Source of the DNA: Sandaracinaceae bacterium
Lineage (GTDB): Bacteria > Myxococcota_A > Polyangia > Polyangiales > Sandaracinaceae
Length of the DNA: 64,000 nt
Direction of reading: 5' to 3'
Assembly: GCA_040218145.1 (NCBI GenBank)
Contig: JAVJQK010000143.1
Coordinates: 1-64,000, forward strand
Part shown: one piece after another, positions 44,877-57,993 of the stretch
Position numbering within the stretch: the stretch's first letter is position 1
Layout of the letters: each line of letters starts with the position of its first letter
Translations under genes and position numbers: made by a program
Notes under the pieces: generated by a model
Database searches by the model: none
What the model was told of the DNA's origin: nothing
Seen by the model: the letters and a program-made list of their open reading frames with translations, nothing else

Positions 44877-45287
44877 ATGGCATTGCCCGAGATCGTCGTC
44901 ACGGAAGACGACTACCGAGACTTGTGTGCGTTGCTCGAAGGCGCGCCGGCCGCGTCGCAGTTGGCCGTCGACCGGCTCGACCTGGAGATCGCCCGCGCCC
45001 GGATCGTGCCGACCGAGAGCGTGGCGGCGGACGTGGTCACGATGGGGGCGACGGTGCGGGTGGAGGAGCTGGTCACGGACACGCGACGCGTGGTGACGCT
45101 GGTCTATCCGGGCGACGCCGACGCGGACGCGGGCCGCATCTCGGTGCTGTCGCCACTCGGCTCGGCGCTGATCGGGTTGCGGGCTGGACAGATCATCGAG
45201 TGGGCGGTGCCGGGGCGGCCTCGCTCGCGCTATCGCGTCGCGGCGGTGCTCGCGCAGCCGGTCCGCGCGCGGAGGGACGCGGTATGA
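44877..45287 (+). CDS. rnk: Rnk-like nucleoside diphosphate kinase regulator (GreA/GreB family)
   Basis: 136 residues, the same length as E. coli Rnk. A short N-terminal helical part (VTEDDYRDLCALL) is followed by VVTMGATVRVEEL, RVVTLVYPGDAD and SVLSPLGSALIGLRAGQIIEW, the FKBP-like C-terminal domain of GreA/Rnk proteins. Rnk binds RNA polymerase near the secondary channel and lacks the long coiled coil of GreA. GAGGAGG precedes the ATG. It overlaps the aminotransferase gene by ATGA, an odd functional coupling. Confidence 0.85.
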   Translation: MALPEIVVTEDDYRDLCALLEGAPAASQLAVDRLDLEIARARIVPTESVAADVVTMGATVRVEELVTDTRRVVTLVYPGDADADAGRISVLSPLGSALIGLRAGQIIEWAVPGRPRSRYRVAAVLAQPVRARRDAV

Positions 45288-46600
45288 GCCAGCTCGCGAT
45301 CCTCGGTGGCGCGCCGACGCTGACGCAGGGAGACCATCGGCCCTGGCCGCAGCTCGGAGCGCGCGAGCGCGAGGCGGTGTCACGCGTGCTCGAGCGCGGG
45401 GTCCTCGGCGGCGAGGACGGGCCCGCGTCGCGTGCGCTCGAGGCGCGCTTCGCGGAGCTCGTCGGGGTGCGGCACGCGCTGCTGACGCACGCCGGGACGA
45501 GCGCGCTCCAGCTCGCCCTCGCGGCCGCGGAGATCGCGCCCGGTGAGGAGGTCATCCTGCCTGCCTACGGCTACGTGGCCGCCCCGCTCTGCGTGCTCGC
45601 GCGGGGAGGCATCCCGCGCTTCGTCGACGTCGACCGAGAGAACGGCAACCTGGATCCGCGCGCGGTGGAGGAGGTGCTGACGCCGCGCGCGCGCGCGATC
45701 GTGCCGATGCACATCCATGGCTGTCCCGCCGACATGGATCGGCTCGGCGCGCTCGCGGCGCGCTACGGGCTGGCGTTGATCGAGGACGCGGCGCAGGCGC
45801 TGGGCGCGACCCACCGCGGTCGTCCGGTCGGCGGGCTCGGCGCGTCGGCCGCGTTCTCGTTCCAGTCCACCAAGCACGTGCCGGCCGGGGAGGGCGGGGT
45901 GTTCGTCACCGACGACGACGCGGCGGCGGAGCGCGCGCGGAGCGCCCGGGGCTTCGGGCGGGACGTGAGGGCGCAGCGAGAGGCGGGCGGCCTCGTGGCG
46001 CACACGCTCGGAGGGGTGGGGCGGGGCAACGAGATGATGGCCGCCGTCGCCCTCGCGCAGCTCGAGCGGTTGCCGGAGCGGATGGCCACCATGCGATGGA
46101 ACGAGACGCTGCTGCGCGACGCGTTCGCCGATCTCGAGGGCCTCTCGCTCCAGACGGTCGAGGCGGATCGAACGGCCGTCTGGTACAAGCTGCGCCTCCA
46201 CTTCGACGCGCGCGTCGCCGGCCTCGGGCTGGCGCCACGCGCGCTGCGGAGCTTGCTGATGCGCGCCCTGGCCGCGGAGGGGGTCGGCGTGACGCTGTGG
46301 CAGGATCACCTGCTCCCGGAGCACCCGGCGTTCGCGCCGCACGAGGGCTTCGGGCGTCGCTGGCCCTACGCGCTCCACCCGGAGCCCGACACGCTGCGCG
46401 CGGAGTATCGCGCGGAGCGCTTCCCACGCGCCCGGGCGCTGCTCGACGCGTCGCTGGTGCTCTTCGACGAGCATCGACCGCTGATCGCCCAGACGCCCCG
46501 CACGGTCGAGCGGGTCGCGGCCGCGGTCCGCAAGGTCTGGGCGGGGCGTCATGCGCTCGCGCGCGCGTTCCCGGACGACGGGCTGACCGACCGGACGTGA
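45284..46600 (+). CDS. DegT/DnrJ/EryC1/StrS-type PLP aminotransferase
   Basis: 438 residues. Motifs in order: THAGTSALQLAL (cofactor phosphate binding), EVILPAYGYVA, VDVDRENGNLDP, IEDAAQALGA (the Asp that pairs with the pyridine nitrogen) and SFQSTKHVPAGEGG with the Schiff-base Lys. Members transaminate keto-sugars or make aminobenzoate-type starters in natural-product and surface-glycan pathways. No sugar or polyketide genes flank it here, so the substrate is unknown. Translationally coupled to rnk. Confidence 0.88.
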   Translation: MSQLAILGGAPTLTQGDHRPWPQLGAREREAVSRVLERGVLGGEDGPASRALEARFAELVGVRHALLTHAGTSALQLALAAAEIAPGEEVILPAYGYVAAPLCVLARGGIPRFVDVDRENGNLDPRAVEEVLTPRARAIVPMHIHGCPADMDRLGALAARYGLALIEDAAQALGATHRGRPVGGLGASAAFSFQSTKHVPAGEGGVFVTDDDAAAERARSARGFGRDVRAQREAGGLVAHTLGGVGRGNEMMAAVALAQLERLPERMATMRWNETLLRDAFADLEGLSLQTVEADRTAVWYKLRLHFDARVAGLGLAPRALRSLLMRALAAEGVGVTLWQDHLLPEHPAFAPHEGFGRRWPYALHPEPDTLRAEYRAERFPRARALLDASLVLFDEHRPLIAQTPRTVERVAAAVRKVWAGRHALARAFPDDGLTDRT

Positions 46601-46631
46601 CGCGCGGCCCGACCCTGCTTATCGTCAACCC

Positions 46632-47528
46632 ATGTCGTGGGAGCCGGTGGAGCGATGGCCGGGCGAGGCGGGCGGGGAGGGGGCCTTCCGCTCGGGCGCG
46701 GAGCCGGCGCTCGCCTCGCGCGACGCGCCTTCGGCCTGGGAGCGGGTGACGCTGTTCTGGTTCTCGACGCCGGAGCTGCCGCTCGAGCGGGTGGCGCGCC
46801 GCGCGGTGCTCACCTCGAGCTACGTCTACGTGCAGCGCTTCGACGGGCGGCGAGAGCGAGTGCGCCGCGATCAGCTGCGCGGATTCCGGCGCGAGGGCGG
46901 GCGCCTGATCGTCGGGGTGCGCGAGGGCGAAGACCTGGTGCTGCCGCTCCGCGCGAAGTGTGAGGTGCAAGCCAGGCTGCTGGCGCAGCTCGGGAGTCAG
47001 GCCGACGCGAAGTGGACGGGATGGCGGCGCGTGGAGGTGGCGGTCGCCGGGGCGGTGATCGCGGCGGCGGCGGCGGGCGTGATGTTGCGGCCGACGTCGC
47101 TCGCGGACGTGATGACCCACTGGGGCCTCGGGCTCTACACCTCCGAGGTCTGCCTGCGCGTCTACGTCGGCGTGGCCGCGTGCGTGGTCTTGCTGTTCTG
47201 TCTCCTCTGGCTCCCGATGCGCGCGCGGGTCGACGCGCTCGGAGTGGAGGTGCGCCGGGGGCTCATCCCGTGGCTGCCGTTCTTCCTCCCCGCCGAGCAG
47301 GTCGACGGCGTGCGCGTGGTCGAGGTCCGCGGCAACACCAAGCACCACCGCAACGTGCTCATGGGCTACGCGGTGGAGCTGGTGTTCGAGCCCGCCATCC
47401 GTCTCGTCTCGCTCCGGCGCGCGAGCTCGCTGCGGCTCCGGACGCACCGCAACGTGCACATGGCCATCGCGCCGCGCGCGGAAGCGGAGCTGCTCCGGAA
47501 GCTCCTGCGGATCCCGTCGAGCTCGTAG
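46632..47528 (+). CDS. Membrane protein with two PH-like halves
   Basis: 298 residues. The N-terminal 115 residues are beta-rich (VLTSSYVYVQRFDG...GRLIVGVREGEDLVLPL), resembling a bacterial pleckstrin-homology-like domain. Two hydrophobic helices lie at about 138-155 and 175-200. A second beta-rich unit follows (DALGVEVRRGLIPWLPFFLPAEQVDGVRVVEV). No family firmly recognised. It starts 31 bases after the aminotransferase and ends 25 bases before a terminator hairpin. Confidence 0.65.
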   Translation: MSWEPVERWPGEAGGEGAFRSGAEPALASRDAPSAWERVTLFWFSTPELPLERVARRAVLTSSYVYVQRFDGRRERVRRDQLRGFRREGGRLIVGVREGEDLVLPLRAKCEVQARLLAQLGSQADAKWTGWRRVEVAVAGAVIAAAAAGVMLRPTSLADVMTHWGLGLYTSEVCLRVYVGVAACVVLLFCLLWLPMRARVDALGVEVRRGLIPWLPFFLPAEQVDGVRVVEVRGNTKHHRNVLMGYAVELVFEPAIRLVSLRRASSLRLRTHRNVHMAIAPRAEAELLRKLLRIPSSS

Positions 47529-47553
47529 CCCGCGACCCGCACGAGAGTCAGCG

Positions 47554-47595
47554 GTCCCCGTTCCTGGATACCGGGGACGACGGCGCCGCTTTTTT
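47554..47595 (+). terminator. Intrinsic terminator after the rnk-aminotransferase-membrane protein genes
   Basis: The perfect inverted repeat GTCCCCG (47554-47560) and CGGGGAC (47572-47578) is followed by a second short palindrome CGGCGCCG and a run of six T (47590-47595). It lies just after the 47528 stop and before the acetyltransferase gene, separating the two transcription units. Confidence 0.5.
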
Positions 47596-47677
47596 GCGTT
47601 CTCGATCCGCGTGGGCATTCTCCCGACAACACGGCGCTGGGGGCGCTGGGGCGCCGTGGAGTGCGGGTGAGAAAGAA

Positions 47678-48382
47678 ATGCTGTCTAGCTTCGATGAGAG
47701 TCTCTCTTGGTCCGTCTGGCGCCTCGACTGGGCGTCGCTGTGGCCGCTTCAGCTGAGCGGAGGGCTGCGCGCGGGTCCGATCGACGCCGACGAGGCGCTG
47801 GCGTTCGTGGCCGCGCACTACGCGGAGGTCTTCCAGGCCGACGCGGCGGACCGTCGCTTCCTTCCCGACCCCATGACGGACGCCAAGCGGCGCTTCTTCG
47901 CGGCCTCGGATCGGATCGCGTTCTACGACGGAGACCGCGTGGTCGGGCTGCTCGTCGGCAACCCGGTCGACTGGAGCACCTACTACTGGCGCACCGTCGC
48001 GCTGCTTCCCGCGTACCAGGGGCGCGGGCTCCTCGCGCAGGTCCTGCGCCACACCGACGCGCTCATGCGGGCGCATGGCGTGGTGCGGGTCGAGGGGGAG
48101 TGCGCGCCGACGAACTACCGCCAGCTGCGGCTCTTGCTGCGGCTGGGCTACGTGGTGACCAGCACGGTCACGAGCGAGCGCTGGGGTGCGTTGCTGCGCC
48201 TGACGCGCTTCTTGAACGAAGAGGCGGAGGAGGCGTTCGCCGAGCGCTTCAGCAAGGACGTCGGTCTGCCTCGCAGCCCTTCCAGCCCATCCACATCGAG
48301 AGGAGAACGTCATGAAGAAGTTCGCGACCGGCACTTTCTGAACCCCACGCAGATGCGCTGCGCATCGAGGGGCGCGCAGTGA
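47678..48382 (+). CDS. GNAT-family N-acetyltransferase
   Basis: 234 residues. Residues about 85-170 give the GNAT core: DRVVGLLVGNP (strand 4), VALLPAYQGRGLLAQVLRHTDALMRAHG (acetyl-CoA pyrophosphate loop QGRGLL) and VEGECAPTNYRQLRLLLRLGYV. After residue 205 codon use worsens and the chain becomes low-complexity, and the 9-codon ORF lies within this end in another frame, so the true C-terminus may be earlier or altered. It leads the diiron/YcaO cassette and may acylate its product or its tRNA/amine substrate. Confidence 0.8.
   Translation: MLSSFDESLSWSVWRLDWASLWPLQLSGGLRAGPIDADEALAFVAAHYAEVFQADAADRRFLPDPMTDAKRRFFAASDRIAFYDGDRVVGLLVGNPVDWSTYYWRTVALLPAYQGRGLLAQVLRHTDALMRAHGVVRVEGECAPTNYRQLRLLLRLGYVVTSTVTSERWGALLRLTRFLNEEAEEAFAERFSKDVGLPRSPSSPSTSRGERHEEVRDRHFLNPTQMRCASRGAQ
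48312..48341 (+). CDS. 9-codon ORF with strong ribosome-binding site: short peptide or displaced start of the diiron gene
   Basis: AGGAG (48301-48305) is spaced 6 bases from the ATG, the best translation signal in this cassette. The frame encodes MKKFATGTF and stops with TGA. Two readings are possible. (a) It is a tiny precursor peptide, as the 7-residue microcin C precursor is, placed directly before a diiron enzyme and a YcaO protein, with Thr residues a YcaO enzyme could use. (b) It is the true start of the next gene: a +1 shift at TTC-TGA-A joins it in frame to EPHADALRIEGRAVIAAALKLD, either by a sequence error or by recoding. Low certainty for either. Confidence 0.35.
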   Translation: MKKFATGTF

Positions 48383-49095
48383 TCGCGGCCGCGCTGAAGC
48401 TCGACATCGAGCGCTACGCCGCCGGGATGCACCGCACGAACGCGCTGTACGTCGGCGCCGCGACCGGGCGCCTCACGCCCGAGATCGTCGGCTTCTACCT
48501 CTTCAACGTGCGGCACCTCGTGCAGCACACGCCGCTCCACCTCGAGCGGGCGCGTCGGCGCGCCCTCGCGCTCGGCCGGACGGACCTGGCCGAGCACTTC
48601 TCCCAGAAGCTCGTCGAGGAGCACGGGCACGATCGCTGGGCGGACGGGGATCTGTCCCTGCTCCGCGAGCGGTTCGGCAGCGACGCCGAAGGCGCGCTCG
48701 CGCCCGCGCTCCTGACACAGCTCCGCTGGATCGAGGCCCTCATCGACCGCGATCCGGCGCTCTACCTCGCGTACATCCTCTTCGCCGAGTACCTCATCGT
48801 GCTCATGGGGCCGTCTTGGCTCTCGATGGTCGAGGCGCGCTGCGGCATCCCGCGGCAGATGCTCTCCGTCATCGGGAACCACGCCGAGCTCGACAAGGAC
48901 CACACCGACGAGGGGCTCGACGCCATCGACGCCCTCGTGCGCGAGCCGCGACAGATCGGGCCCATGCGCGAGACGGTCGCGCGGGCGATCGCGCTCTTCG
49001 AGCGCTGGTCGGGTGAGGTGCTCGCCCATGGAGTGCTCTCCCAATCCCTCCGACCCGAGGAGCCGTCGTCGTGGACCCGCGCCTCCTTCGCCTGA
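48379..49095 (+). CDS. Haem-oxygenase-like diiron (HDO/CADD-type) redox protein
   Basis: 238 residues from a GTG preceded by GAGGGG at about 7 bases. All-helical, with the family's ligand-rich helices: YLFNVRHLVQHTPLHLERAR, EEHGHDRWADGDL, ILFAEYLIVLM and GNHAELDKDHTDEGLDAID, supplying Glu, His and Asp for a dinuclear iron site. Relatives make fatty terminal alkenes, cleave amino acids or sacrifice own residues for p-aminobenzoate. The end overlaps the YcaO gene by 25 bases, so they are co-translated. Substrate unknown; a role in peptide maturation is inferred from the YcaO partner. Confidence 0.8.
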   Translation: MIAAALKLDIERYAAGMHRTNALYVGAATGRLTPEIVGFYLFNVRHLVQHTPLHLERARRRALALGRTDLAEHFSQKLVEEHGHDRWADGDLSLLRERFGSDAEGALAPALLTQLRWIEALIDRDPALYLAYILFAEYLIVLMGPSWLSMVEARCGIPRQMLSVIGNHAELDKDHTDEGLDAIDALVREPRQIGPMRETVARAIALFERWSGEVLAHGVLSQSLRPEEPSSWTRASFA

Positions 49096-50042
49096 GCCGA
49101 GACCTCCCGCTGCCGGCGGGCTTCGCGGCGCCGGAGCGCTTCTCGGACGTCGTCTCGATCGACGGGGTCGAGGTGCACCGCGCGGGCCTGCAGGCCCGGG
49201 GGCCCGGCGGGGTCGAGGTCACCGGGAGCGCGGCCGAGGTGGGCGGGGACCCGCTGCCCCGCGCCTGGTACGAGCTGCTCGAGCGGGCGGCCATCGTGCG
49301 GGCGAGCGACCGCGCCCAGCCTTACGTCGACGCGTGTGGGCGGGTGACGGGGAGCGCGCGCCACCCGGTCTCGCCCGATGCCGGCGCGGAGCGCCGCGCC
49401 GCGCGCTCGAACGGCGTCGCCCTGCATCGGACCTTCGAGGCGGCGCGCGAGGCGGCGCTCCTGGAGCTGATCGAGCGCGACCGGGTGCTCGGCAGCTGGT
49501 ACGGCGAGCTGCCGCTCCGGCCGGCGGCGCTCCCGGAGCGCCTGCGCCCGTTCGTGTCGCACGAGTGGGTCGTGCGCCGGGTCGACGATCCGGCAGGGGT
49601 GGAGCCGGACATCACCGCGGTGGTCGTCGTGGGGTTCCCGCGGCGGAGCACCGCGCCGCTCGCGCGCGGCTTCGCGGCCGGGCGAAGCCTCGCGGAGGCC
49701 TCGGAGGCGGCGGCGCGCGAGGCGCTGCAGAACCTCGCCTTCCTCTGGGACGAGCCGGTCCCGATGCGAGCGCCCGAGGCGGCCCCGACGCCGCTCTTCC
49801 ACCTCGACTACTACCTCGTCCCCGCCCATCACGAGGCCCTGCGGGCGTGGCTCGACGGGGAGGCGGGAGCGCGCCGGCGAGCGCCCGCGCGGAGCGCCAC
49901 CCGCTACCTCGATCTGACGCCACCGTCGTTGTCCGGGCGGGCCAGGGTGGTCAGAGCACTGGCAACATCGACCCGGCCGCTCGTGTTCGGCGCCGCCCCG
50001 GCGCCCGTCGCGCCCTCACGTCGCGTTCATCCGGTCGCTTGA
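49071..50042 (+). CDS. Short stand-alone YcaO-family protein
   Basis: 323 residues from a GTG with GAGGAG 8 bases upstream. ATP/Mg-binding YcaO signatures are visible: AWYELLERAA (E68, E71, R72), ARSNGVALHRTFEAAREAALLELIERD (S113, N114, E132, E135, R136) and the later GFAAGRSLAEASEAAAREALQNL. YcaO enzymes activate peptide amide oxygens with ATP to form azolines, thioamides or amidines. It is shorter than most (about 400 or more) and has no E1-like or RiPP-recognition partner nearby, and the C-terminal Pro-rich tail of many azoline-forming YcaOs is not obvious. It is the last gene of the cassette, 43 bases before the giant kinase gene. Confidence 0.8.
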   Translation: MDPRLLRLSRDLPLPAGFAAPERFSDVVSIDGVEVHRAGLQARGPGGVEVTGSAAEVGGDPLPRAWYELLERAAIVRASDRAQPYVDACGRVTGSARHPVSPDAGAERRAARSNGVALHRTFEAAREAALLELIERDRVLGSWYGELPLRPAALPERLRPFVSHEWVVRRVDDPAGVEPDITAVVVVGFPRRSTAPLARGFAAGRSLAEASEAAAREALQNLAFLWDEPVPMRAPEAAPTPLFHLDYYLVPAHHEALRAWLDGEAGARRRAPARSATRYLDLTPPSLSGRARVVRALATSTRPLVFGAAPAPVAPSRRVHPVA

Positions 50043-50085
50043 GTCTCTTCAAGGGCGTCTCGATCTGGTAGCTTCGCGTGGCCTC

Positions 50086-53000
50086 ATGCAGGTCGGCGAG
50101 GCTCGAATCCAGATCGAAGGCGTCGAGCTCCACGAGGAGCTCGGCTGGGGCGCGACGTCCGTCGTGTACCGCGGGACGCGCGAAGGCAGCGCCGTCGCGG
50201 TGAAGATCGCACGGGGCGGGGCCCGGACGGCGCGCTGGTTCCGACGCGAGGCGGCGGCGCTGGCCCGGGTGGACGACCCGGGGCTCCCCACGATCTTGGA
50301 GCTGGGCGAGGTCGACGGCCTGCCCTACCTCTTGATGGAGCTGGTGCGAGGGCCGACCCTGGCCGAGCGTCTGCAGTCGACGGACACGTTCACGCTCGAC
50401 GAGACCGTCTCCCTCGGGATCTCGCTCGCGACGACCCTGGACGCGGTGCACCGACGCGGGCTCGTCCACTGCGACCTCAAGCCGCGCAACATCGTGCTCG
50501 AGACGGACGGCCGCGCGCGGCTCGTCGACTTCGGGTTCGCGACGCCGCTCCAGCTCGAGCCCGAGGGCGCGGGAACGCCCCCCTACGCAGCTCCCGAGCA
50601 GAAGCGCGGCGCCCGGCTCGCGGACGCGCGCACGGACCTGTACGCGCTCGGGCGGGTGCTGGCCGAGTGCGTGGCCGGCCCGGTCCTCGAGCCGACCCCG
50701 GAGGACGCCGTCCGTGCGCGCGCGCCCGCCCTCGCCCCCGTCGTCGAGGCGCTCCTGCAGGGCGCGCCGTCCGAGCGCTATCCGAGCGCCCTCGCGCTCG
50801 TGGAGGAGCTGGGCCGCGTGCGTGACGGCGAGCCGCCGCTCGGCGCGGCCGCGGCGCGATGGGAAGCGCCGGAGCCCAGCGCGCTGGTGGGGCGCGACGA
50901 GGAGCTGGGCAAGCTGAGAGAGCTCTGGCGCAGCACCAGCGCCGGCTGGGGCGAGGCGATCGTCGTCGAGGGTGAGCGCGGCGCGGGCAAGAGCCGCCTC
51001 CTCCGCGAGCTGACGCGCGAGATCGTGGGAGAGGGCGGTCGCGTCGTCGCGCACCCGTGCCGGGAGGGCGATCCCCGCCCGCTCGCCGCCCTGCGCTCGC
51101 TCCTGGAGGCCGCCGCGGCGGTCCTCGCGCGAGACGCCCTCGCGCGCGCCGTCTTCCAGGGGGCGGTCGGGGACGACCTCGCGGCGTTCGTCGGCGTGCT
51201 CTCGCCGGAGCTGGGCCAGTGGGTCGACGCCGAGCCCGCGTTCGACACGGGGATCGGCGCCCAGGCCTTCTCGGGCGCGGCCGCGGACGTGGTGCGCGCC
51301 GTCGCCTCGGCGCTCGGGCCCGTGTGCCTCCTGGTCGACGACGCGCAGTGGCTCGACCGCACGAGCCGCGAGGTGCTGGAGCGGGTCGCGGACGACGTGC
51401 GCGAGACGCGCGCCCTCCTCGTCCTCGCGACCCGGCCGGTCGGCGCCGGCGTGCCGGACGGGCGCGCGGCGTGGGAACTCCCGCGCCTCGAGCTCGAGGC
51501 GTTCGACGCGCGCCGCGCGGCCGCGCTCGTCGACGCGACCCTCGGCCGCGAGAGCGACGGAGCGCTCGCGGAGTGGGTCGTCCGCGTCTCGGATGGCACG
51601 CCGCTCGGGATCGTCGAGGTGCTCGACGCGATGCTGGACGCGGGGAGCCTGCGGCCGGTCGACGGGGTCTGGCGTTTCGACCGCGAGGCGGCCGAGCGCA
51701 TGCACCTGCCGCACGGGGCGCTGGCCCTGATGACACGTCGCCTCGGCACCCTGCCCGCGGCGACGCGCAGGGTCTTCGAGGCCGCCGCGGTCGTCGGGAG
51801 CGCGTTCGAGCCGGGGGTGCTCGCCGACGCCCTGGAGGTCGCGCGCGATGACCTGGACTTCGCGCTCGCCGACGCCCAGCGGGCCGGCCTCATCGAAGCG
51901 GACGCAGACGGGGGGCATCGTTTCCTGCACGACGCGGTGCGGGAGGCGCTGCTCGACGGGCTCGACGTCGAGGCACGCCGCGACCTCCACCACCGCGTCG
52001 CGCGCGCGCTCGATACCCGGGGCGGCGCGTCGCCCTTCGTGCTCGCGGCCCACTACGCGTCGGGGCGCCCGGGGGAAGACCGAGACCGGCTCGCCCACCT
52101 CGCCAGCGACGCGATACGGCAGCTCGTCGAGGACCACGACGACGAGGCCGCGCTGCGGCTCTACGACCTCGTCGCGTCGGCGCTGTCTTCCGACGAGCTC
52201 GGCCCTCTGGCGTCGGATGTCGCGGAGGCGGCCACCCGTCTGGGAGACAGCGAGCGCGCGCTGGAGCACTACGGCCGCGCGATCGCCTCGGCCGCCACCG
52301 CCGAAGCGCGCGCGCGGCTCCACGGGCGGTGCGCCTGGGTTCATCAGCAGGTCGGGCACGAGGAGGCGGCCTGGTCCGAGCTGTCTCGCGCCTTCGCGGC
52401 GCTCGGTGAGCGCCTCCCCGCAGAGAGCCCACGGGCGCTGGCGGGCTCCGCCTGGCGGTTGGTGCCGAGACGAACGACGCTCGCGGGCCCCCAGGAGGCG
52501 GGGCGGCTCGGCATCCTGTGCGACCTGCACTACCAGAACGCCCGGCTGGGTGAGGAGTACGAGCGGCCACTGCGACTGCTGCAGAGCACCGTGAGGGCGT
52601 ACCGGCTCTCGCGGCGGCTGGGGTCCACGCCCGCGCGCGCCCGCAGCGAGGCGATGGTGGCGACGGCCCTCGCGATCATGGGGCGCCGCGACGAGAGCCG
52701 ACGTCACGCGGACGAAGGCATGCGCATCGCGCGCGAGACCGGTCAGCTCGACGTGCTGGCCTTCTGCTCGCAGATGCGCGGCATGGCGAGCTGCTTCCTC
52801 GGAGACTTCGACCAAGGGCTCGCGAGGCTCTCCAAGACCGTGTTGCGTCATGGGCGCTGGATGGAGGTGGGCGAGCTCTGCTTGTGTGGCCAGACGACCC
52901 ACGCGATCGAATCCGTGCGCGGCGAGCCCACGCACGCGGTTCCGCTGCTGCGAGTTGCGACTGCGCGTGCCCGGCGCCTGAACGCCCCCCCGCCGGCGGC

Positions 53001-55326
53001 GCACGTGGCGGAGCTCTGTCTTCGGGCACACGAGGCAGTGGCCCAGGGCGCGGCGCCCGCGCTCCCCGCACGCGAGGACCTGCGGGGCTTCCCGCGGACC
53101 GCGGCCTGGGGACCCGTGACGCGCCGCTTTCTGGAGTCCGATGAGCTGGGCGCCGAGTTCGAGGCGCACGTCGCGCTCTTCGCGCAAGGAAAACAGTCGG
53201 CCCGGACCGCGCACCCGATCCTCTTCGAGCACTACGTCTCCGTCGCGTACGCCCGGCTGCGCCAGACGATCCTCGCCCCGGATCGCGGCGCTCCGCTCGC
53301 GCGGCTGAAGAAGGCGATGGCCGACGTGTTGGCGTCCGCGCGCTTCCCGCTCTACCGCGCGCACGCGCTCGTCCTGGAAGGCGCCGTGCGATGGTTGAGC
53401 GGCGACCTCGACAAGGCGCGCGCCCGGCTCGCGGAGGCCGACGTGCTCGCCGACCAGGAGAAGTGCGTCTGGGCGCGCTTCCAGGCGGAGCGCATCCGCG
53501 CCCACATGCTGCGCGACGAAGCCCACCGCGCGTCGGCCGAGCAGCGCGCGCGGATCGCCCTGACGATCGCGCGCGACGCCAAGGCGCTCAGCTGGGAGCG
53601 GCTCATCTGCGAGGAGCTGGAGATCTCCGCGTCCCGCTCCTCGAGCGCGCGTCGCTCGAGCGTCGTCACGTCGCAGGCCTCGCACCGCCGGCAGCTCCAG
53701 ACGCTCCTTCACCTGTTCGAGGTGGCGACGCGGCAGCCGGCGGTGGAGGAGCAGGGCCGGCTCTTCCTGGACGAGGTCGTGAGCTCGCTCGACGCGGCGC
53801 GCGGGCTGCTCGTATTCGACGCGGAGTCGGCGCGCGGGGCGGCGCTGATCTGCGCGCGGCAGCGTGGGGCCGCCTGGGACGAGCCACCGCAGGACGTGCG
53901 GGCGCTGGTCGATGGAGCGCGCGAGGCGGGCATGCTGCGCACGCGGGGCTCGGAGAAGGACGACGCGCCGCGCGCGGTCGCCGTGCCGCTCTGGCTCCGC
54001 GGAGAGGTCGTGGGCGGCCTCTACCTGGAGCGCGACGGCGACCAGCCGGCGTTCGAAGACGAAGACCTCGATGTGCTCTTCGCGCTGTCCTACCAGGTGT
54101 CGGTCGCGCTGCAGCTCGCGCGCGCGATGGGCGACCGGGAGCGCCTCGAGCAGTCGCTCCGACAGTCGCAGAAGATGGAGGCCATCGGGCGGCTCGCGGG
54201 CGGCATCGCGCACGACTTCAACAACATGCTGACGGTGATGGTCGGCACCATCCAGCTCCTCTCGTTGAAGGTCGACGAGGGCGAGGCGGGCCGCGAGATC
54301 GACATGCTCGCGCAGGTGACCGATCGCGCGAGCCGGCTGACCAACCAGCTGCTCGCCTTCTCGCGCCAGTCGAGCACGCAGCTCGAGGTCTTCGACGTCG
54401 ACGTCGCCCTCGACGCGCTCGCGCCGATGCTGCGGCGGCTGATCGGCGATCACGTCCGCGTCGAGCTGGTCCTCGACGCGCGGCCGGGCGTGGTTCACCT
54501 CGACCGCGGGCTGCTCGAGCAGGCGGTGGTGAACCTCGCCCTCAACGCGCGCGACGCGATGCCGGCGGGCGGTCACCTCGTCTTGCGAAGCGCGGTGCGG
54601 GAGGGGCGCGTCGTGGTGGAGGTGCGGGACGACGGCGCGGGCATGAGCCGTGAGGTCCGGGAGAACGCGCTCGAGCCCTTCTTCACCACCAAGGAGCGCG
54701 GCAAGGGGACCGGGCTCGGGCTCGCGATGGTGTACGGGTTCGTCGAGCAGTCGGGCGGCCAGCTCCACATCGACAGCGAGCTCGGCCGCGGGACGAGCGT
54801 CGAGCTCTCGTTCCCCCGCAGCGAGCGGCGGCCGGAGCTGGGCGCGATGGTCATCGGCGCCTCCCGGGACCGGAACGAGTCGCAAAGCGCCACCGCGTCC
54901 GGGGAGATGCTGCGTACGACGGTGCTCGTGGTCGACGACGACCCGCTGGTCCTTCAGACCCTCGCCCTCGGGCTGGAGCCGGAGGGCTACCGCGTCGTGG
55001 CGGCCGAGACGCCCGCCAAGGCCCTGCGTCTGGCGGCGGCGCTGGGCGGCGTCGACGTGGTCGTCAGCGACGTGATGATGCCGGAGATGAACGGGCCCGC
55101 GCTCGTGGAGGCGCTCCGCGAGATCGTCCCGGACGCGGCCGTGCTCTTCGTCTCCGGGTACGCGGACGCGGACCTGCGTGAGACGATCGAGTTGAAATCA
55201 CGGCACTTTCTTCGCAAGCCGTTCCACCCTGACGAGCTCTGTGCGGCCGTACGCGAAGCGCTTCGGCTCAAGTCCGAGGTCACTGAAATCCCTTCTCAGC
55301 GGATTCCAGCCGAAAACGGGACTTAA
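50086..55326 (+). CDS. Giant hybrid signalling protein: Ser/Thr kinase-AAA-TPR-GAF-histidine kinase-receiver
   Basis: 1746 residues. Kinase domain 1-270: AVKIA, HCDLKPRN (H128; HRD as HCD) and DFG at 148-150. A predictive-ATPase module follows, with P-loop GERGAGKSR (296-304) and LLVDDAQWLD (about 415), then TPR-like helices to about 1200. A GAF domain lies at about 1215-1365. The histidine kinase has IAHDFNNML with H1376, then the ATP-binding N, G1 and G2 boxes (NLALNARDAM, DDGAGM, GKGTGLGLAM). The receiver has D1662 (VVSDVMMPEMNG) and the KPF lysine. The architecture is typical of myxobacterial hybrid kinases. It is cytoplasmic (no membrane helix). Input unknown; the output may pass to the next gene. 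Confidence 0.93.
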   Translation: MQVGEARIQIEGVELHEELGWGATSVVYRGTREGSAVAVKIARGGARTARWFRREAAALARVDDPGLPTILELGEVDGLPYLLMELVRGPTLAERLQSTDTFTLDETVSLGISLATTLDAVHRRGLVHCDLKPRNIVLETDGRARLVDFGFATPLQLEPEGAGTPPYAAPEQKRGARLADARTDLYALGRVLAECVAGPVLEPTPEDAVRARAPALAPVVEALLQGAPSERYPSALALVEELGRVRDGEPPLGAAAARWEAPEPSALVGRDEELGKLRELWRSTSAGWGEAIVVEGERGAGKSRLLRELTREIVGEGGRVVAHPCREGDPRPLAALRSLLEAAAAVLARDALARAVFQGAVGDDLAAFVGVLSPELGQWVDAEPAFDTGIGAQAFSGAAADVVRAVASALGPVCLLVDDAQWLDRTSREVLERVADDVRETRALLVLATRPVGAGVPDGRAAWELPRLELEAFDARRAAALVDATLGRESDGALAEWVVRVSDGTPLGIVEVLDAMLDAGSLRPVDGVWRFDREAAERMHLPHGALALMTRRLGTLPAATRRVFEAAAVVGSAFEPGVLADALEVARDDLDFALADAQRAGLIEADADGGHRFLHDAVREALLDGLDVEARRDLHHRVARALDTRGGASPFVLAAHYASGRPGEDRDRLAHLASDAIRQLVEDHDDEAALRLYDLVASALSSDELGPLASDVAEAATRLGDSERALEHYGRAIASAATAEARARLHGRCAWVHQQVGHEEAAWSELSRAFAALGERLPAESPRALAGSAWRLVPRRTTLAGPQEAGRLGILCDLHYQNARLGEEYERPLRLLQSTVRAYRLSRRLGSTPARARSEAMVATALAIMGRRDESRRHADEGMRIARETGQLDVLAFCSQMRGMASCFLGDFDQGLARLSKTVLRHGRWMEVGELCLCGQTTHAIESVRGEPTHAVPLLRVATARARRLNAPPPAAHVAELCLRAHEAVAQGAAPALPAREDLRGFPRTAAWGPVTRRFLESDELGAEFEAHVALFAQGKQSARTAHPILFEHYVSVAYARLRQTILAPDRGAPLARLKKAMADVLASARFPLYRAHALVLEGAVRWLSGDLDKARARLAEADVLADQEKCVWARFQAERIRAHMLRDEAHRASAEQRARIALTIARDAKALSWERLICEELEISASRSSSARRSSVVTSQASHRRQLQTLLHLFEVATRQPAVEEQGRLFLDEVVSSLDAARGLLVFDAESARGAALICARQRGAAWDEPPQDVRALVDGAREAGMLRTRGSEKDDAPRAVAVPLWLRGEVVGGLYLERDGDQPAFEDEDLDVLFALSYQVSVALQLARAMGDRERLEQSLRQSQKMEAIGRLAGGIAHDFNNMLTVMVGTIQLLSLKVDEGEAGREIDMLAQVTDRASRLTNQLLAFSRQSSTQLEVFDVDVALDALAPMLRRLIGDHVRVELVLDARPGVVHLDRGLLEQAVVNLALNARDAMPAGGHLVLRSAVREGRVVVEVRDDGAGMSREVRENALEPFFTTKERGKGTGLGLAMVYGFVEQSGGQLHIDSELGRGTSVELSFPRSERRPELGAMVIGASRDRNESQSATASGEMLRTTVLVVDDDPLVLQTLALGLEPEGYRVVAAETPAKALRLAAALGGVDVVVSDVMMPEMNGPALVEALREIVPDAAVLFVSGYADADLRETIELKSRHFLRKPFHPDELCAAVREALRLKSEVTEIPSQRIPAENGT

Positions 55327-55350
55327 GTCGGGTACCGACCGGGAGCCCCT

Positions 55351-55367
55351 CTTGGCAGTCTGCCAGG
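55351..55367 (+). promoter_or_regulatory. Inverted repeat between the hybrid kinase and the next regulator
   Basis: TGGCA-GTC-TGCCA with one more wobble and one more pair outward (55351-55367). No T-run follows, so it is more likely an operator or RNA hairpin than a terminator. An AGGAGG overlaps its right arm but has no start codon at suitable spacing. Confidence 0.3.
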
Positions 55368-55390
55368 AGGAGACGAGTCCCGAGGCGGCC

Positions 55391-56002
55391 ATGACCATCG
55401 AAGTGCAGGGCGTGTTGTTGGTCCACGAGGACACCAGCTGGTGTCGCCGCGTCGCGCGCAAGCTCGCCGACCTGGATGTCGCCGTGCACGTCGCGACCTC
55501 GACCTCCGGTGCGCTCCGCGTCGTGGAGTGCAATCGCCCCGAGGTGGCGCTCGTGGATCTCGCCGCGCTGCCCACCCCCGACTGCTTCGGGCTCGTCCGG
55601 AGCGTCGTCAACGCGTCGCCCGCGCCCGCGGTGGGGGTCTGGAGCCACCGGCTCATGCCTCACGAGGCGTTCCTGCTCGGGCAGCTCGGCGTCCGGCGCC
55701 TCCTGGCCACGCGCCCGCAGCCGCAAGACGTGATGACGCATGCGCGCGCGATGGCCGACACGCGGCCGGACGTCGTGCCGCACCTGCGCGCGTTCGCGCC
55801 TCACGCGGGGCCGGTCCGCGAGACGCTGGCCGCGATCCGCGATCTCTTCCTCGACCAGGTGCTCGGCGCGGTCGACGAGAGCCAGTCGGCGGCGGCGGAG
55901 ATCCTCGGGATCACGCGCCAGGCGGTCGCCCAGTCGGAGCGCGCCAAGACGGGGTCGATCTCCCGCGCGCTCGACGTCGACGACGAAGCCGACGTCGGCT
56001 GA
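55391..56002 (+). CDS. Response-regulator-like protein with Fis-type HTH
   Basis: 203 residues. Residues 1-125 resemble a receiver: VLLVHED at strand 1, EVALVDLAALPTPDCFGL with an Asp at the phosphoacceptor place, but the double acidic pair of strand 1 is only ED and the Thr and Lys switch residues are not clear. Residues about 150-190 contain SAAAEILGITRQAVAQSERAK, a helix-turn-helix of Fis type. It lies 64 bases after the hybrid kinase, and may be its degenerate DNA-binding partner. It may bind DNA without phosphorylation. Confidence 0.7.
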   Translation: MTIEVQGVLLVHEDTSWCRRVARKLADLDVAVHVATSTSGALRVVECNRPEVALVDLAALPTPDCFGLVRSVVNASPAPAVGVWSHRLMPHEAFLLGQLGVRRLLATRPQPQDVMTHARAMADTRPDVVPHLRAFAPHAGPVRETLAAIRDLFLDQVLGAVDESQSAAAEILGITRQAVAQSERAKTGSISRALDVDDEADVG

Positions 56003-56022
56003 AGCTGCGCTACCCTCGGTGG

Positions 56023-57993
56023 ATGCGCTTCGCCTGCCTGCTGACGGTCCTGGTCTTCTCCGCGTGTGATGGCGCGCCCGCGCCGAGCGACGCGAGCCTA
56101 CCCGAAGACGCGGGGCAGGACGCGGGCCCGCGCATGCGCACGCGTGAGGTGCTGCCCGACCCGGGGCCGCTGCGCGCGGGCGTCGCGGAGGCGCGGCTCC
56201 CGGCGCCGCTCGGCATCGGCACGATGGGGTACGGCGCCATCGACGTGGAGCCCTCGGTCACGCCCTTCGCGGAGCGCTTCCCCGGGACGACTCGCATGCA
56301 CGGTGAGTTGACGTTTCGGGCCGTCGCGATCTCGCGCGGCGACGCGCACGAGGTCGTGTTCGTGCGCATGGACACCGTCGGCGTGTTCCAGCAGCTGCGG
56401 GAGGCGGTGCTCGACACGCTCGAGGCGCGCCTCGGTCGGCGCCTCGACGACGCGCTCATCCTCGCCGGCAACCACACCCACTCCGGGCCCGGCCGCATGT
56501 TGATGACCTCGGGCGCGCTCGTCGCGCTCGGCGACACGTTCTTCCCCGAGTTCTACGATGGCGTGGTCGAGGCGCTGGCCGACGTGATCGAGGCGGCGCT
56601 CGATGATCTACAGCCCGCGGAGCTGGCCACGGCGGTGGTCGGGACGAGCGACGCGCATCGGGATCGCCGCTGCGCCAACGACATGCTGCCGCTGCTGCAG
56701 GAGAGCCCGGACCTCCCCTTCATCGCCGTCCGCCGTGAGGGGCGCGTCGACGCGATCGTCGCGAGCTACGCCTACCACGGCACGGTGCTCGGGCTCGACG
56801 ACCACACGCTGTCCGGCGACATGGGCAGCGTGGTGGAGCACCGGGTCGAGGACCGGCTCGACTTCCCGACCCGGGTGCTCTTCTTCAACAGCTTCGGCGC
56901 CGACATGTCGCCCTCGAGCCCCGCCGCCGCGCCCGACGAGGTCGGCGCCGATCAGCCCGGCGGCTACGACCGCATGGACCGCCTCGGCGACGTGATCGCG
57001 GACGCGATCCTGCCGAGCCTCGCGGACCTGGAGTTCGGCGCCGAGCCGGACGTGCGGGTGCGGACCTACCGCGTGCCCATCTCGACCGCGGACATCGGCT
57101 ACGGGGCAGGGGAGTTCGACTACCGACACGGCGGCGCCTTCTGCGGCGTGGGCTCGGAGGGCAACTGCACCGACCTGACGCCCATCGAGGGGCTCGACGG
57201 ACGCTGCGTGCCCATCTCTCGCGCGGAGCGCCTCCCCAAGCAGACGATGATCAGCGTCGGCGCGGTGGGCGGGCTCGCGCTCGTGACCGGCGCGGGGGAG
57301 TGGTCGACCTCGCTCGCGGCCGGCGTGCTCGAGCGCGCGCGGGAGCTGTCGGGCCTCGACGCGATGTTCATCGGCTACGCCAACGACTACGTCGGCTACT
57401 CGCTCACGGAGGAGGACTGGTTCATGGGCGGCTACGAGGCGTCCGGCGCGCTCTGGGGACCGCGTCAGGGCGACTACCTCGCCGCCAGGACGCGCGAGGC
57501 GCTCGAGACCTTCGACGAGACCTGGAACGAGCCGCCGTGGATCGAGCCCGCGCGCGCCGCGCCGTTCACCGACTACACCTACGAGCCATACGTGCCCGAG
57601 GCGGCGCAGGAGCCCGGGCGGCTGCTCGCCGACGTGCCCGCGTCCGTCCCCCAGACCGAGCTGGTGACCTTCACCGTCGCGGGCGGGGACCCGTGGCTCG
57701 GCGCGCCGGTGGCCACGCTCGAGCGCGCGGACGGGACGCCGGTGACCCGCGCCAACGCGCGGCCCTTCGACTCGCGCAGCTACGACATCTGGGCCGACCT
57801 TCGACCCGAGCCGTCCTACGCCGAGGTGGAACGAGCCGACTCGCGCACCTTCGCCTGGACCTTCAACATGCCCGCGCGTCGCCGGGCCGGCTCGAGCGTC
57901 TCCCTCGCGGGCGACTACCGCTTTCGCGTCTCCATCCCGACCGCCGCGGGCGAGTCGATGGAGGTCACGACGGGGACCTTCACCGTCGAGTGA
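56023..57993 (+). CDS. Neutral/alkaline ceramidase-like lipoprotein
   Basis: 656 residues with a lipoprotein signal (MRFACLLTVLVFSACDG; Cys 15) and an Asp/Pro linker. The neutral ceramidase-like fold is indicated by AGNHTHSGPG (zinc His residues), SYAYHGTVLG, LSGDMGS with the likely nucleophile Ser near VVEHR, FFNSFGADMSP, and a C-terminal beta-sandwich (about 535-656). These enzymes hydrolyse the amide of ceramide; sphingolipids are made by several Myxococcota. A lipid-anchored extracytoplasmic location is expected. It is not clearly in an operon. Confidence 0.8.
   Translation: MRFACLLTVLVFSACDGAPAPSDASLPEDAGQDAGPRMRTREVLPDPGPLRAGVAEARLPAPLGIGTMGYGAIDVEPSVTPFAERFPGTTRMHGELTFRAVAISRGDAHEVVFVRMDTVGVFQQLREAVLDTLEARLGRRLDDALILAGNHTHSGPGRMLMTSGALVALGDTFFPEFYDGVVEALADVIEAALDDLQPAELATAVVGTSDAHRDRRCANDMLPLLQESPDLPFIAVRREGRVDAIVASYAYHGTVLGLDDHTLSGDMGSVVEHRVEDRLDFPTRVLFFNSFGADMSPSSPAAAPDEVGADQPGGYDRMDRLGDVIADAILPSLADLEFGAEPDVRVRTYRVPISTADIGYGAGEFDYRHGGAFCGVGSEGNCTDLTPIEGLDGRCVPISRAERLPKQTMISVGAVGGLALVTGAGEWSTSLAAGVLERARELSGLDAMFIGYANDYVGYSLTEEDWFMGGYEASGALWGPRQGDYLAARTREALETFDETWNEPPWIEPARAAPFTDYTYEPYVPEAAQEPGRLLADVPASVPQTELVTFTVAGGDPWLGAPVATLERADGTPVTRANARPFDSRSYDIWADLRPEPSYAEVERADSRTFAWTFNMPARRRAGSSVSLAGDYRFRVSIPTAAGESMEVTTGTFTVE

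Follow-up and report, generated by a model that had tools for sequence, protein, structure and literature searches.

The window, a 64,000-nucleotide stretch of contig JAVJQK010000143.1 from a Sandaracinaceae bacterium, carries genes for a stand-alone YcaO and a haem-oxygenase-like diiron protein (HDO) beside a GNAT gene, and raises the question of what these enzymes act on. The original prediction was that a 9-codon open reading frame (ORF) close by could serve a very small RiPP-like pathway, with YcaO action on a non-peptide substrate as the alternative. The GNAT, HDO, and YcaO genes are all present on the same strand (Table 1), with an overlap of 4 bases between GNAT and HDO and the predicted 25 bases between HDO and YcaO. 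The 9-codon ORF, ATGAAGAAGTTCGCGACCGGCACTTTCTGA, and its AGGAG ribosome-binding site 7–11 bases upstream are also real, but the ORF does not follow the GNAT gene as had been proposed. It is nested out of frame within the last GNAT codons (GNAT stop at 48380-48382), and 37 bases separate its end from the HDO start. An Rfam scan of positions 45200-56500 gave no match, and PADLOC detected no defence family.

Table 1. Features of the cassette and its downstream neighbour; coordinates are positions in the window.
Feature	Coordinates	Strand	Evidence
GNAT-fold protein, 234 aa	47678..48382	+	Pfam PF00583 Acetyltransf_1, E 5e-10; 20-member alignment A6
Shine-Dalgarno AGGAG of the tiny ORF	48301..48305	+	Sequence; AGGAG or similar in 21/21 loci
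9-codon gene (MKKFATGTF, stop), proposed precursor peptide	48312..48341	+	Conservation in 21/21 cassette-GNAT loci; genome pattern search with control
Haem-oxygenase-like diiron protein (HDO), 238 aa, GTG start	48379..49095	+	Alignment A5; AlphaFold fold match
Stand-alone YcaO, 323 aa	49071..50042	+	Pfam PF02624, E 3e-11; TIGR03604; alignment A4; AlphaFold
Giant Ser/Thr kinase-AAA-GAF-HisKA-HATPase-receiver protein, 1746 aa	50086..55326	+	Pfam

Relatives of the cassette were sought by a YcaO protein search of whole genomes followed by a profile, covering 183 genomes of the order and a sample of 377 genomes of the phylum. The neighbourhoods were extracted, and genes were called with a codon model. 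Of the 183 order genomes, 20 carry this YcaO clade, and one of the 20 is a further genome from the window's own species; the clade also occurs in a single genome from a different class of the phylum. The genomes matched by the GNAT profile and by the YcaO profile are identical, 20/183 in the order, with unlinked cases included and kinship ignored, and 7/377 in the phylum sample. Their presence is scattered across several families. A single-protein scan of genome contigs matched only the near-identical locus of Sandaracinaceae MED-G138, and a search of plasmids found neither a YcaO nor a GNAT relative.

The usual gene order is GNAT, tiny ORF, HDO, YcaO, and giant kinase. The order in one genome (G307) is YcaO, GNAT, tiny ORF, HDO, and two others (G428 and G417) have no HDO and carry a B12-binding radical SAM gene upstream of GNAT. 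In three genomes (G433, G477, and G016) YcaO is found on another contig, apart from a block in which GNAT, the tiny ORF, and the kinase are still together; HDO stays with this block in G433 and G477 and not in G016. The cassette of G435 is probably split across two contig ends. The gene downstream of the tiny ORF varies, being HDO, YcaO (loci L035 and L036), or the kinase (L089), and the gene upstream is the cassette GNAT without exception. The cassette has no co-conserved RRE, exporter, protease, or TfuA. Its proteins were scanned against Pfam and NCBIfam without an RRE match, although a remote RRE could escape such scans.

Conservation of the short ORF and its binding site was the check proposed for the original prediction, and both are present at every cassette GNAT locus (21/21). 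The ORF is kept in all 20 other genomes with a cassette GNAT, of which 19 represent other species and one is the further genome from the window's own. Every copy has 9–10 codons, lies directly behind GNAT, and has a ribosome-binding site. The ORF often begins inside the GNAT stop, as ATGA or GTGA, and at most loci lies outside the GNAT frame. A 29-base pattern for the 9-codon form matched 15 of the 183 order genomes, 13 within the cassette and two elsewhere, compared to one match for the reversed pattern used as a control. The two extra matches, in the sister genomes G468 and G469, were rejected; they are one homologous stretch antisense to a conserved gene, with no ribosome-binding site and no cassette. 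That the ORF is nested in the GNAT gene in the window could suggest mere coincidence at the 3′ end of GNAT, but its conservation at 21/21 loci, mostly outside the GNAT frame, and the controlled pattern search refute this reading, to which we give virtually no weight.

The encoded peptides follow the consensus M[KR]K([KR])FAxx[STC] with Phe or Leu, rarely Tyr, His, or Ala, as the last residue. The variants are MKKFATGTF, MKKFATGSF, MKKFARTSL, MKKRFALNCL, MKKFAQMSF, MRKKFALACY, MKKKFAHMSF, MKKFALVCF, MKKFALSSF, MKKFALGTL, MKKFARATF (twice), MKKRFALGTL, MKKFATGCF, MKKFATMTF, MKKFARATL, MKKFALGCF, MKKRFALASF, MKKRFALTTL, MKKRFALITH, and MKKKFAHITA. The penultimate residue across the 21 loci is Thr (10), Ser (6), or Cys (5) and nothing else, whereas the positions between FA and this residue are free to vary. 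At least nine changes of the penultimate residue map to the YcaO tree, all within Ser, Thr, and Cys, compared to two changes of length. The terminal Tyr, His, and Ala occur once each; the Ala and His peptides (L089:4430 and L088:8871) both belong to genomes with an unlinked YcaO, one of which (G016) is also without HDO. The FA pair is invariant as amino acids, but its Phe codons are TTC and TTT (14/7) and its Ala codons GCG, GCT, GCC, and GCA (6/5/5/5). This synonymous variation shows that selection acts on the amino acids of the ORF. Comparison of the window with the other genome from its species gives 1/30 differing bases in the ORF, a Thr-to-Ser change at the penultimate position, and 6/37 in the stretch behind it.

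An all-against-all comparison of the 478 small ORFs around the 21 loci identified no other small ORF common to more than three loci. A longer nearby precursor was rejected as a candidate; most of the matches among small ORFs either linked close relatives or lay on the strand opposite a cassette or kinase gene. Neither loss of the short ORF in related cassettes nor a longer conserved precursor around the 21 loci was found, an outcome that favours the original prediction. The YcaO of G016 (L010:3850-6283) has a different RiPP setting: it adjoins a BufA2-family bufferin-type metallophore precursor (NF050166, above cut-off) and an MbnB/TglH/ChrH (DUF692/MNIO) enzyme gene. This BufA2 and MNIO pair was rejected as a general substrate system because it is found beside YcaO in G016 alone.

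The YcaO of the window matches its Pfam family above cut-off. Its AlphaFold model (pLDDT 93) matches McbD best, with a Z of 20.8 over 284 residues, followed by archaeal YcaOs (Z 19-20) and LynD (Z 18). Residues E68, E71, E132, E135, R136, E217, and Q220 are invariant in 20/20 members of alignment A4, and the Glu motifs are the Mg-ATP-binding motifs of YcaOs. The C-terminus reads HP[IV]x in place of the PxPxP or proline-rich tail of partner-dependent cyclodehydratases. YcaO cyclodehydratases act on Ser, Thr, and Cys, the established TOMM chemistry of LynD and McbD. The restriction of the penultimate residue to Ser, Thr, and Cys therefore points to YcaO as the peptide-modifying enzyme. Thr8 is the proposed target in the window.

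HDO matches Pfam Haem_oxygenas_2 with an E of 4e-5, just below the cut-off of that family. Its AlphaFold model (pLDDT 93) has a TM of 0.80 to 3dde, with CADD next, and also matches HrmI and UndA. The ligands E81, H84, E137, H168, D172, and H175 form the motif ExxH...E...HxxxDxxH and are invariant in 16/16 full-length members of alignment A5, so the protein combines the haem-oxygenase fold with the three-His, three-carboxylate ligand set described previously (PMC13108848). HDO with all six iron ligands occurs in 16 species, and two others have the B12-radical-SAM gene instead. HDO is missing in G016, G417, and G428, and in G368 it is truncated and without ligands (L013:3034-3399, 121 codons without the iron-ligand motifs); this last locus still keeps GNAT, the tiny ORF, YcaO, and the kinase start. 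These absences show that HDO is not essential to the proposed pathway. The B12-binding radical SAM genes of the two HDO-less species (L036:8991-10721 and L035:9263-10936) have the RiPP enzyme ApyD as their best NCBIfam match, far below cut-off.

The GNAT protein is assigned to its fold superfamily by Pfam only, with a match above cut-off. The acyl-CoA pyrophosphate loop [QR]xxGx[GA] expected of a GNAT N-acetyltransferase is complete in 0/20 members of alignment A6, and the fourth-position Gly is found in 4/20. The family keeps DWSTYYxR and [ST][ED]RWG despite this erosion, which suggests, at the level of sequence, a changed function. The protein may have turned into a peptide-binding partner instead of, or besides, a transferase. 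A homologue of the kinase lies downstream of the cassette in 19/20 species. The 1746-residue protein has no clear transmembrane segment and is a possible sensor of the product.

For the 70 bases 3′ of the tiny ORF, folding is more stable than that of shuffled sequences (mean z -2.84), which sets them apart from 59 further same-direction gaps at these loci (mean z -0.40; p 6e-5). A stable hairpin is found in about 60% of loci; it is absent or non-significant in the window (z 0.4), L015, L035, L036, and L041. The layout resembles the terminator between mccA and mccB, which maintains an excess of the microcin C precursor (PMC6495379), and an attenuator would fit it too. The main rival reading takes the ORF for a regulatory leader: a ribosome stalling on or translating MKKFA... 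would switch a terminator-like hairpin and with it the expression of the genes downstream, and YcaO would have a different substrate. The hairpin, the attenuator-like position of the ORF in front of it, and the existence of leader peptides of similar size speak for this reading. The ORF is however intra-operonic and usually overlaps the GNAT stop, and it is the gene downstream that varies and never the GNAT upstream. Stalling would need neither free third codon positions nor a penultimate residue confined to Ser, Thr, and Cys over 9 codons, and the window and loci L015, L035, L036, and L041 have no significant hairpin. We regard a regulatory leader as unlikely.

A further reading accepts the peptide as a product but leaves it unmodified, as a signal or a GNAT subunit, with YcaO and HDO modifying another protein or a small molecule. 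The tightest tie of the peptide is indeed to GNAT and not to HDO, and some YcaOs act on proteins, as in uL16 thioamidation (PMC13063428). Three findings make an unmodified peptide very unlikely: the penultimate Ser, Thr, or Cys fits YcaO chemistry, the GNAT-tiny ORF pair is present in exactly the genomes that have YcaO, unlinked cases included, and the comparison of small ORFs around the loci gave no second co-conserved candidate for the substrate. The conservation of the ORF and the lack of a rival precursor also make YcaO action on a non-peptide substrate the less likely of the two possibilities originally raised. We consider it likely that the cassette is a minimal RiPP-like pathway with a precursor of 9–10 residues, in which a layout like that of microcin C is combined with YcaO chemistry. 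Points against it are the lack of a co-conserved RRE, exporter, protease, or TfuA, the loss or truncation of HDO in some genomes, the unlinked YcaO in three, the missing hairpin in the window, and the attenuator-like position of the ORF elsewhere. As in RiPP pathways, a predicted precursor gene with a ribosome-binding site is linked to genes for modifying enzymes, here at 21/21 GNAT loci. The presence of the ORF in every cassette supports the original proposal of a very small pathway, in which the modification itself would be the work of the linked enzymes.

A literature search found no description of this gene combination, of the family, or of an MKKFA-type precursor, and the tiny gene is very probably, judging from the comparative data, the substrate gene of a hitherto undescribed and extremely small peptide-modification pathway. 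The microcin C operon has a GNAT-related protein, MccE. It also resembles the cassette in its 7-codon precursor gene mccA, which is of similar size and has no classical leader, in the hairpin or terminator between precursor and enzyme genes, and in an ATP-using enzyme that acts at the C-terminus (PMC6495379). The differences are that microcin C uses the ThiF-like MccB, whereas the cassette has YcaO and no ThiF-like gene; that MRTGNAN ends in Asn, whereas the unrelated MKKFAxx[STC]F ends in [STC][FLYHA]; and that the cassette has HDO and no exporter, with GNAT preceding the precursor instead of following it. Biarylitides and myxarylin derive from 5-residue precursors encoded by 18-bp genes, in myxobacteria among others (PMC13417212, PMC12951456). 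They share with the cassette a tiny gene missed by annotation, which in their case encodes a two-residue leader, but there a P450 cross-links aromatic residues, whereas the cassette has no P450, a peptide of 9–10 residues, and a constant Ser, Thr, or Cys.

YcaO is paired with a haem-oxygenase-like protein in the thiovarsolin cluster (varA/Y/T/O; PMC6511847), as it is here, but the TfuA, amidinotransferase, ATP-grasp ligase, MFS exporter, and repeating precursor of that cluster have no counterpart in the conserved cassette. The streptamidine-type clusters likewise have a YcaO unfused to other domains, which maps to its own precursor family (PMC8442711); these are actinobacterial, with longer precursors, other co-enzymes, and ABC transporters. 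The conserved genes include no E1/Ocin-ThiF partner, FMN dehydrogenase, or PxPxP tail of the McbBCD or SagBCD kind, no MccB-type adenylyltransferase or MRTGNAN-like precursor, and no 5-residue precursor with a P450. The cassette falls outside the classical TOMM, microcin C, and biarylitide systems because the defining partners of each are absent.

A mechanism can be proposed for the minimal pathway. The tiny ORF behind GNAT would be translated to the peptide M-K-K-(K/R)-F-A-x-x-[S/T/C]-[F/L], in which the invariant KKFA half would be an integral tag for recognition and the final four positions the modified part. YcaO and ATP would activate the peptide bond before the penultimate Ser, Thr, or Cys and close an azoline ring. 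HDO might then oxidise the C-terminus, at the ring or at the final residue; other species would use the B12-radical-SAM enzyme for this step or have neither enzyme. As a guess, the peptide would be bound or acylated by the GNAT-like protein, with the lysines or the N-terminus as possible sites, and the soluble Ser/Thr-His kinase encoded next to the cassette would either sense the product or regulate how it is made. A more far-reaching version is tentative and, in our estimate, rather doubtful: the product would found a new class of YcaO-made peptides with the shortest known YcaO substrate (9–10 residues with no separate leader), serve as an intracellular signal or cofactor read by the hybrid kinase, and have the loop-less GNAT as a recognition subunit replacing the RRE.

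To our knowledge, YcaO chemistry has so far been reported on longer precursors or on proteins. If the minimal pathway is correct, this chemistry works on a nonapeptide without a separate leader, and the peptide would be a minimal, easily synthesised substrate for the enzymology of YcaO and HDO. YcaO would then join MccB and P450 among the enzyme classes that have recruited minigenes invisible to annotation, and stand-alone YcaO genes that appear to have no precursor would merit a search for ORFs of 5–12 codons. The near-constant kinase neighbour makes a role for such a peptide in signalling in myxobacteria testable.
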